DNA from: Anaerolineae bacterium
Lineage (GTDB): Bacteria; Chloroflexota; Anaerolineae; J036; Brachytrichaceae
Direction of reading: 5' to 3'
DNA: 64,000 nt
NCBI GenBank assembly: GCA_947476335.1
Contig: CANJQH010000007.1
Coordinates: 1-64,000 of the forward strand
Position 1 is the stretch's first letter, and every line of letters begins with the position of its first letter. Both the position numbers and the translations under genes were made by a program. The notes beneath the pieces were generated by a model that did no database searches, was not told the origin of the DNA, and saw only the letters and a program-made list of their open reading frames with translations. This document shows, piece after piece, positions 17,303-43,032 of the stretch.

Positions 17303-18109
17303 GTGATTGTTGTAAAAGTCGGCGGCAGCGCCGGAATCGACTACGACTTGTTCTGCGACGATATCGCGCAACTGGTAACAGCAGGCGAGCATGTTGTGCT
17401 GATTCACGGTGGCTCTCACGAGACCAATGTCATCAGTGAAAAGCTCGGCAAACCACCGCGGATTCTCACATCATCGCAGGGCTACACTTCGCGCTACACA
17501 GATTCGGAGACGCTGGATATCTTCGCCATGGTCTACGCCGGCAAGATGAACACGCGCATCGTCGAACGTCTGCAGAAACGCGGAGTCAACGCCGTCGGCC
17601 TGAGCGGCATCGATGGCCGCCTGCTGGAAGGCACGCGCAAAGCCAGCGTACGCGCCGTCATCGATGGCAAACAGGTGCTCGTACGCGACGATTTCACCGG
17701 CAAGGTCGAAAAAGTCAACGCCAGCCTGCTGCACCTGCTGCTCGATGCCGGCTACACGCCGGTGCTCACCCCGCCGGCTGTCAGCTACGAAGGTGAAGCG
17801 ATCAACGTCGACGGCGACCGCGCGGCTGCGATGGTGGCAGCGGCGCTCGGCGCAAAACAGCTGATCATTCTTTCAAACGTCCCCGGCCTGCTGCGCAGCT
17901 TTCCCGACGAAAGTACGCTGATCCGCGACATCCGCTACGCCGACCTCGAGCAGGCGCTCGGGTTTGCCGAAGGCCGTATGAAAAAGAAAGTACTCGGCGC
18001 CACCGAAGCCATCGCCGCCGGCGTGGAACAGGTCATATTCGGCGACGCGCGCCGCGCACGGCCAATCTGGAATTCGATGAACGGCGAAGGCACTGTCATT
18101 CATAAGTGA
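17303..18109 (+). CDS. lysZ: [LysW]-aminoadipate/glutamate kinase, LysZ type
   Basis: This 268-residue amino-acid kinase begins MIVVKVGGSAGI and has the substrate and ATP sites HGGSHETN, GLSGIDGRLLEG, EAINVDGDRAA and GRMKKKVLGA. The insert RKASVRAVIDGKQVLVRDD is typical of LysZ enzymes, which phosphorylate aminoadipate or glutamate carried on LysW, rather than of ArgB. It starts with GTG after a good AAGAGG ribosome site. LysW, LysX and LysY genes are not nearby, so it is an orphan here. An acetylglutamate kinase role remains possible. Confidence 0.85.
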   Translation: MIVVKVGGSAGIDYDLFCDDIAQLVTAGEHVVLIHGGSHETNVISEKLGKPPRILTSSQGYTSRYTDSETLDIFAMVYAGKMNTRIVERLQKRGVNAVGLSGIDGRLLEGTRKASVRAVIDGKQVLVRDDFTGKVEKVNASLLHLLLDAGYTPVLTPPAVSYEGEAINVDGDRAAAMVAAALGAKQLIILSNVPGLLRSFPDESTLIRDIRYADLEQALGFAEGRMKKKVLGATEAIAAGVEQVIFGDARRARPIWNSMNGEGTVIHK

Positions 18110-18127
18110 TGAGCGGTACTTATAAAG

Positions 18128-18322
18128 TCAGGCCTCGATTGATATTTCCCGTAACTACTCAGGCCAGCTATTTTTCCAACGCGAAACACACTATTCTCTC
18201 CCCCGAAGGGGGAGAGAATAGTGTGTTTCGCGGGAAATACTGATTTGGGCCTGAGTAGTTACTATTTCCCGCATTACACGCACCTGTTTCGCGTTGAAAA
18301 ACCGACTGACCTGAGTAGCTAC
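18128..18322. repeat. Old element A copy interrupted by a younger copy
   Basis: The outer sequence (GTCAGGCC... at 18127-18142 and GCATTACACGCACCTGTTTC... to GACCTGAGTAGCTAC at 18308-18322) is a diverged element A. The intact copy at 18151-18262 sits within it, and the host bases TATTTCCC are duplicated on either side. The old copy has lost its hairpin. Confidence 0.85.
18151..18262 (-). mobile_element. Element A, intact 112-bp copy (nested)
   Basis: It has complete terminal repeats and hairpin (CGAAACACACTATTCTC arms, CCCCC-GAA-GGGGG tip). The exact 8-bp flanks TATTTCCC lie at 18143-18150 and 18263-18270. It is inserted into an older element A copy. Confidence 0.95.
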
Positions 18323-18414: not shown

Positions 18415-19389
18415 ATGGACCTGTCTTTAATTCTTACAAACCTGCTGAATCCGCCGGTGCTGTTCTTTTTTCTCGGCATCGCAGCGGTACTCGTCAAATC
18501 AGATCTGGAAATCCCACAGCCGCTGCCGAAGTTTTTCTCGCTGTATCTGCTGTTCTCGATCGGATTCAAAGGCGGCATCGAACTCAATCACAGCGGCATG
18601 GACGGTCACGTGCTGTATACGCTCGTCGCTGCGATGGGCATGTCGCTGCTGACGCCACTGTGGCTCTTTCCGCTGCTGCGGCGCCGCTTCGACATCTCCA
18701 ACGCTGCGGCGATTGCGGCGACGTACGGCTCGATCAGCGCCGTCACGTTCATCACGGCCTCGGCGCTGCTCGAGCAGATCGGCATACCGGCGAGCGGCCA
18801 CATGGTGGCAGTGATGGCGCTGATGGAATCACCGGCGATCATCGCCGCGATTGTGCTGGCGCGCCGGGCCGGCGTCAGCAGCGGCAACACTGAAAGCCAC
18901 GGCACAGCCGGGCTGTTGCGCGAGGCGCTGTTCAACGGCTCGGTGCTGCTGCTGCTCGGCAGCCTCGCCATCGGCATGATCACCGGCGCGCGCGGCGCGA
19001 AGGCACTGTATCCGTTCACCAGTGACATTTTTCAAGGATTCCTGAGCCTCTTCCTGCTCGAAATGGGCATCTCGTCGGCGCGCCGCTTCAAAGACCTGCG
19101 CATCTTCGGCATTCGGCCGCTCGTCGTCGCCGTCGGCATTCCGCTGGTAAACGCCACGCTCGGCATCAGCCTGGCCTGGCTCGGCGGGCTCAGCCGCGGA
19201 GATGCGCTGATCTTCACCGTGCTGTGCGCCAGTGCATCCTACATCGCCGTGCCCGCTGTCATGCGCATGTCGCTGCCAGAATCCAACCCCGGACTCTTCG
19301 TGCCGATGGCGCTGGCGATCACGTTCCCTTTCAACGTCGCCATCGGCATTCCACTCTATCTGGGCATCATCGAGCGGCTCTGGCGATAG
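18415..19389 (+). CDS. sbtA: SbtA-family sodium-dependent bicarbonate transporter
   Basis: The 324-residue protein has about ten membrane segments in two inverted halves. Family features include FFFLGIAAVLVKSDLEIP, LFSIGFKGG, TYGSISAVTF, GHMVAVMALMESPAI and CASASYIAVPAVMR. Cyanobacterial SbtA takes up bicarbonate with sodium; non-cyanobacterial members are less studied. No SbtB (PII-like) partner gene is adjacent. A TATGCT hexamer lies 9 bases before the ATG. It follows the nested element A cluster. Confidence 0.87.
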   Translation: MDLSLILTNLLNPPVLFFFLGIAAVLVKSDLEIPQPLPKFFSLYLLFSIGFKGGIELNHSGMDGHVLYTLVAAMGMSLLTPLWLFPLLRRRFDISNAAAIAATYGSISAVTFITASALLEQIGIPASGHMVAVMALMESPAIIAAIVLARRAGVSSGNTESHGTAGLLREALFNGSVLLLLGSLAIGMITGARGAKALYPFTSDIFQGFLSLFLLEMGISSARRFKDLRIFGIRPLVVAVGIPLVNATLGISLAWLGGLSRGDALIFTVLCASASYIAVPAVMRMSLPESNPGLFVPMALAITFPFNVAIGIPLYLGIIERLWR

Positions 19390-31207: not shown

Positions 31208-31297
31208 AGTGAGTCGCCAAAAGTTCTGGCGGCAGATTCGCCTCCCCCGCTTTGCGGGGGAGGCGAATCTGCCGGACAAAACTTATGGACAGGAACT
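31208..31297 (+). mobile_element. Element B, 90-bp copy
   Basis: Imperfect inverted ends are AGTGAGTCGCCAAAAGTT and, on the complement, AGTTCCTGTCCATAAGTT. A perfect 21-bp-arm hairpin (31230-31250/31254-31274, CGGCAGATTCGCCTCCCCCGC) lies inside. The dinucleotide TA flanks both sides, as expected for Tc1/mariner-IS630-type insertion. Confidence 0.85.
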
Positions 31298-34325: not shown

Positions 34326-34400
34326 ATGATTGCGGATTTTAGATTTCAGATTTCTGATTTGGCCCGCACCCACATCAGCCACGGCCGCGAGTGCGTCAAT

Positions 34401-34428
34401 CTGAAATCTGAAATCTGAAATCTGAAAT
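34401..34428. repeat. Four tandem 7-bp units
   Basis: CTGAAAT is repeated four times and is complementary to ATTTCAGATTTCTGATTT upstream (34343-34360), so a long imperfect stem can form after the enolase-family gene. An element A copy is inserted at its right edge. Confidence 0.75.
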
Positions 34429-37655: not shown

Positions 37656-37745
37656 AGTTCCTGTCCATAAGTTTTGTCCGGCAGATTCGCCTCCCCCGCA
37701 AAGTGGGGGAGGCGAATCTGCCGCCAGAACTTTTGGCGACTCACT
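37656..37745 (-). mobile_element. Element B, 90-bp copy
   Basis: The copy is inverted relative to the one at 31208. Right flank is TA (37746-37747) and left flank is TG, so one side of the expected TA duplication has mutated. The 21-bp hairpin arms have one mismatch at the tip. It ends 18 bases before the creatininase-family gene. Confidence 0.85.
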
Positions 37746-42942: not shown

Positions 42943-43032
42943 AGTGAGTCGCCAAAAGTTCTGGCGGCAGATTCGCCTCCCCCGCAAAGCGGGGGAGGCA
43001 AATCTGCCGGACAAAACTTATGGACAGGAACT
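42943..43032 (+). mobile_element. Element B, 90-bp copy
   Basis: It is nearly identical to the copy at 31208, with TA on both sides (42941-42942 and 43033-43034). The hairpin arms differ at one position. It lies just upstream of the AT-rich acetyltransferase gene. Confidence 0.88.

Follow-up and report, generated by a model that had tools for sequence, protein, structure and literature searches.

How did an intact copy of a short repeat, here called element A, come to lie inside a diverged sequence that resembles it, and which enzyme could have put it there? A sequence-only reading of the window, a 64,000-nt stretch of DNA from an Anaerolineae bacterium, had proposed that a young element A interrupts an old one, and that this gives a relative age with at least two waves of activity. 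The window belongs to contig C7 of an assembly of 3.42 Mb in 125 contigs (92.7% complete). Family statistics were collected from a sample of 791,775 bp, made up of the window and of stretches that are parts of contigs C1–C10.

A young copy within an older relative

The features of the locus are as follows.

17303..18109, + strand: upstream intact reading frame, 268 aa
18120..18150, − strand: left part of the old host, including one target copy; 21/31 matches to the 83-type consensus, 5/15 mismatches in the terminal repeat
18143..18150, no strand: left target-site duplication TATTTCCC, exact 8 bp
18151..18262, + strand: young element A (a MITE), 112 bp; 111/112 matches to the consensus of its own type
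18151..18165, + strand: left terminal inverted repeat GTAACTACTCAGGCC, 15/15 complementary
18180..18204, + strand: left arm of the central perfect hairpin, 25 bp, 100% paired
18205..18207, + strand: hairpin loop GAA, 3 nt; in the copies as a whole, GAA and TTC are about equally frequent
18208..18232, − strand: right arm of the hairpin, 100% paired with the left arm
18248..18262, − strand: right terminal inverted repeat, 15/15 complementary to the left one
18263..18270, no strand: right target-site duplication TATTTCCC, exact 8 bp
18271..18322, − strand: right part of the old host; 43/52 matches to the 83-type consensus, 2/15 mismatches in the terminal repeat
18415..19389, + strand: downstream intact reading frame, 324 aa

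The boundaries first proposed for the intact copy, 18151–18262, proved exact, and the host bases said to occur once before and once after it are the perfect 8-bp duplication at 18143–18150 and 18263–18270. Folded as DNA, the 112-bp element reached −48 kcal/mol (z −15.25), and eleven identical copies, itself included, were found in the genome among the matches listed. When the insert and one duplicate were removed, 18120–18150 joined to 18271–18322 gave exactly 83 bp, in an orientation opposite to that of the insert. The reading had suggested aligning the reconstructed host with the consensus of A. This alignment gave 64 matches in 83 positions, ungapped, to the consensus of an 83-bp subfamily, and the profile of the 112-bp type matched across the rejoined junction with an E value of 2.9e-9. 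When the host was shuffled 20,000 times, 64 matches were never reached (maximum 38), and the reversed 83-type consensus found at most 41 matches anywhere in the 792 kb. As the right joint was slid over 18263–18281, the sole best score was obtained at 18271 (64; next best 58). As only uninterrupted copies entered the subfamily set, the host had no part in building the consensus of the 83-type.

These results confirm that a young A lies in an older relative of A, as the sequence-only reading had correctly seen. Its account of the old copy held in so far as this is a diverged relative whose order is restored by removing the insert; the host is, however, not a decayed 112-bp copy but a member of the shorter and older 83-bp subfamily. 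The right end of the nest at 18322 stands, and the host begins further left than 18128, at 18120. The host's own target duplication was not recognisable (AGCGGTAC / GATAAATA), a point that we count against our best explanation; more than one mismatch in the duplication was also found in 12 of the 15 copies of the 83-type. No known RNA family was found in the window at gathering score, and no tRNA gene that might serve as a target was found there.

Two explanations without any insertion were considered. Two A copies might have recombined, or undergone gene conversion, to yield a chimera that looks nested, and similar copies are indeed many, some neighbours sharing a duplication in tandem (C4:89105–89399); such an event would nevertheless not bring back an 83-bp register free of interruption and, with it, an exact 8-bp duplication whose length is typical of the family, and we regard it as scarcely credible. 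An assembly artefact joining two loci, conceivable in 125 contigs full of near-identical repeats, appears just as improbable to us, given that the host halves are in register and the flanking genes are intact. The products of these genes may be an ArgB/LysZ-like kinase (upstream) and an SbtA-like membrane transporter (downstream).

The sequence-only reading had named a composite fixed at many genomic sites as the finding that would speak against it. Across the whole assembly, the left junction (22 bases) occurred without mismatch at C7:18142 only, the 21 other places each differing by 2–3 bases, and in the 792-kb sample the right junction was exact at the window locus only. As a unit, the composite does not recur.

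Subfamilies and their order in time

Searching the 3.42 Mb for the end pattern with at most one mismatch gave 468 and 453 matches, compared with 2 and 2 for the reversed control, and we therefore estimate about 460 copies with recognisable ends. In the 791,775-bp sample, merged segments of the A family numbered 175 and covered 17,024 bp, or 2.15%. The 112-bp element was present in one of 28 genomes of the family and in one of 396 genomes of the class, in both cases its own (0/27 and 0/395 others). Among the 72 copies of 108–116 bp with good ends in the sample, 46 carried an exact 8-bp duplication, against 0.86 for shuffled partners, and exact duplications of other lengths (range 4–12) were absent. 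The targets were AT-rich (63% in 62 duplications vs 40% for the sample), and TATTTCCC fits this pattern. CAGATTTC and GAAATCTG are recurring targets of A. Tandem heptamers (AATCTGA)n adjoin A copies at 34398–34428 and in the flanks of several copies on C1–C4. At G000:C4:89105–89399, two A copies stand in tandem (83 bp, and 204 bp with element B inside); the 8-mer CAGAAATC flanks the pair on both sides and also separates its two members.

Element A is thus short, multi-copy and without coding capacity, with terminal inverted repeats and a target duplication of fixed length, which are the marks of a MITE. REP/REPIN sequences, which are moved by RAYT, make no target duplication, and an assignment of A to them was ruled out by the 8-bp duplication. 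In the available excerpts of the sources, Correia, ERIC, Chunjie (PMC10969869) and MITECca01 (PMC9769881) resemble A in being short, with palindromic or inverted ends, high copy number and a duplicated target; A differs from them in its IS66-type ends and in its subfamilies of 61, 83 and 112 bp.

The subfamilies differed in divergence and in the state of their duplications. Median divergence was 4.5% in the 112-bp type (89 copies; exact duplications in 50/89), 9.8% in the 61-bp type (11 copies; 4/11) and 19.3% in the 83-bp type (15 copies; 2/15), in a comparison that required both ends at no more than 4 mismatches, so that decayed copies are under-counted, and that leaves aside 11 further rows of other lengths. 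Of the 15 rows of the 83-type, one (C1:45128) probably does not represent an element, and another (C4:1040) shows a different deletion and has kept its duplication intact. On these figures, the type of 112 bp is young and that of 83 bp old. Hence the two or more waves of activity that had been read from the nest are supported independently of it, by subfamily divergence and by decay of the duplications. Taken together, our data demonstrate the insertion with its 8-bp duplication, show what the host is and that it is the older of the two, and establish a multi-copy family.

Among 78 A copies with a duplication, we found one clear and one weak case of A inside A, where about 1.7 would be expected by an estimate from the 2.15% coverage. 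A candidate for a second nest at C3:4215 (E 3.7e-4) was not accepted on inspection. Nesting of A in A is about as frequent as coverage predicts, neither clearly favoured nor avoided, and strong self-avoidance is therefore not indicated. Where MITEs are this dense, such a nest is to be expected, and it belongs to ordinary mobile-DNA biology.

A second repeat, element B, is a 90-bp MITE found at CTAG, with a TA duplication in 41 of the 43 full copies in the 792 kb. Copies in the window lie at:

31208–31297: element B
37656–37745: element B
42943–43032: element B

Outside the central ten bases, 29 of the 43 copies were identical. B lay inside A in 11 of 43 cases, and A lay inside B in none of 78, against about 0.4 expected by an estimate from B coverage, too few for the zero to be informative. 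B looks younger than the A types and would represent a third wave. This gives a relative chronology for a dense bacterial MITE population, with the 83-bp wave followed by the 112-bp wave and then by B. A single IS630-type transposase frame (PF13358) occupies a TA-flanked stretch of 1,167 bp at G000:C3:25444–26610, which covers the L136 match; the left end of the stretch agrees with the left end of B at 13 of 16 positions, and this IS630-type element could possibly represent the parent family of B.

The mobilising enzyme

IS66 elements have GTAA ends and produce 8-bp target duplications. For the enzyme that moved A, the terminal sequence in question is GTAACTACTCAG. In its terminal GTAACTRCTCAG ends and its 8-bp duplication, A is like the IS66-family insertion sequences (NCBIfam NF033517), the IS66 side of this comparison being general background; unlike them, it is 112 bp long and carries no gene, and no IS66 gene was found in its own assembly.

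A physical link between such ends and an IS66 transposase was found in a related genome (G011), where both ends of a 1,500-bp element carry GTAACTGCTCAG and lie directly against a 487-aa transposase. This protein is IS66 by Pfam PF03050 (1.3e-46) and by the NCBIfam model transpos_IS66 (314 bits, cut-off 180). Over the outer 12 bases, the ends of A differ from those of the 1.5-kb element at one position (A/G). The two have only the outer 12–15 bp in common, the interior being unmatched, and the 1.5-kb element reaches the contig end, so that its own duplication is not visible. Other IS66-like frames in G011 and in a second related genome (G002) are adjoined by GTAACTGCTCAG or GTTACTACTCAG ends.

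The end pattern was present in 44 of 396 class genomes, that of the window included, with unrelated interiors in the loci compared. Among short pairs with these ends in other class genomes, 7 of 13 showed an 8-bp duplication with at most one mismatch, 3 of them exact, as judged by eye. Judging by such ends, IS66-type MITEs seem widespread in the class. At three loci in other class genomes (L066, L084, L057), short elements combine GTAACTRCTCAG-type ends with an interior of another kind and are flanked by exact 8-bp duplications.

In the assembly that contains the window, no IS66 transposase was detected with Pfam PF03050 or with the G011 protein as query, and hence no resident mobiliser. Assemblies of this kind often lack insertion sequences that are present in many copies, and the absence is therefore weak evidence. 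It does give some room to the view that the nest is real and the mobiliser belongs to another DDE transposase family that shares GTAA-type ends and an 8-bp stagger. We consider this unlikely, as IS66 transposase frames in two related genomes are immediately bordered by near-identical ends, and as the end pattern recurs in the class and in the genome itself.

The explanation that we prefer, and hold to be highly probable, is that A is an IS66-type MITE moved in trans, with an 8-bp stagger, into an older 83-bp relative. As a non-autonomous miniature transposon of 112 bp, it would have been carried by a transposase acting on GTAACTRCTCAG ends and cutting the target with that stagger; it would then have landed in an 83-bp relative that dates from an earlier wave, with duplication of TATTTCCC. 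From the shared ends, we infer that this enzyme was an IS66-family transposase that is now absent from the genome or unassembled in it. The finding also ties this MITE population to IS66 ends. The main text of the MITE review PMC10969869 does not contain the term IS66, and in the accessible part of the open-licence literature we found no description of a comparable IS66-type MITE family. The A family seems to be previously undescribed.

Orientation of the hairpin loops

Loop orientation was read relative to the unequal outer arms, with copies taken from the assembled sequence. In 68 exact 112-bp copies, the loop was GAA in 32, TTC in 29 and other in 7. Pairs of copies with at most one difference outside the loop had the same orientation in 137 cases and the opposite one in 136, and genome-wide an otherwise identical 50-mer occurred 62 times with GAA and 57 times with TTC. 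On a tree of 61 copies from which the loop had been left out, loop orientation needed 16 changes, against a mean of 16.7 for shuffled labels (90/200 at or below 16), while on the same tree a stem variant needed 1 change and site 19 needed 6. Orientation followed no clear phylogenetic pattern. All four combinations were present for loop and site 19, and also for loop and stem variant. A nearest-neighbour test gave an agreement of 0.564 vs 0.494 (129 of 2,000 shuffles as high), a marginal hint of inheritance. A site that by itself divides two subfamilies, as site 19 does, escapes this test, and we therefore relied on tree change counts and combination counts.

The mixture may be an assembly artefact, although the bases that define orientation are 25 bases away from the loop, so that, by reasoning, an assembler using words of more than about 29 should preserve the orientation. 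In an excerpt of PMC8794818, template switching in hairpins is described as predicting loop inversion and paired stem changes. Element A resembles those hairpins in both respects and B in loop inversion; loop inversions are rare there, whereas orientation is fully mixed among the copies here. In the stem of A (75 distinct rows), 110 cells carried changes in both arms that still pair, 2 carried changes in both arms that do not, and 76 were changed in one arm; in the terminal repeat of the same rows the figures were 9, 2 and 79, all of these counts being inflated by shared ancestry. Template switching between the arms would explain the mixed loop and the mostly paired stem changes. We give an even chance to the idea that the hairpin cores of these MITEs invert so often that loop orientation is fully randomised between copies that are otherwise identical, one arm being repeatedly corrected from the other. 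Should the flipping prove genuine, one could measure directly how fast palindromes invert in a bacterium, and hundreds of near-identical palindromes would serve as a natural assay for template switching or for cruciform flipping in the chromosome of a bacterium.

The loop of B was TTT in 23 of 43 copies, AAA in 17 and other in 3. In the subset of 29 whose sequence outside the core is the same, 15 had TTT, 13 AAA and 1 another loop, and genome-wide, where the AAA orientation only was counted, it gave 60 exact matches.
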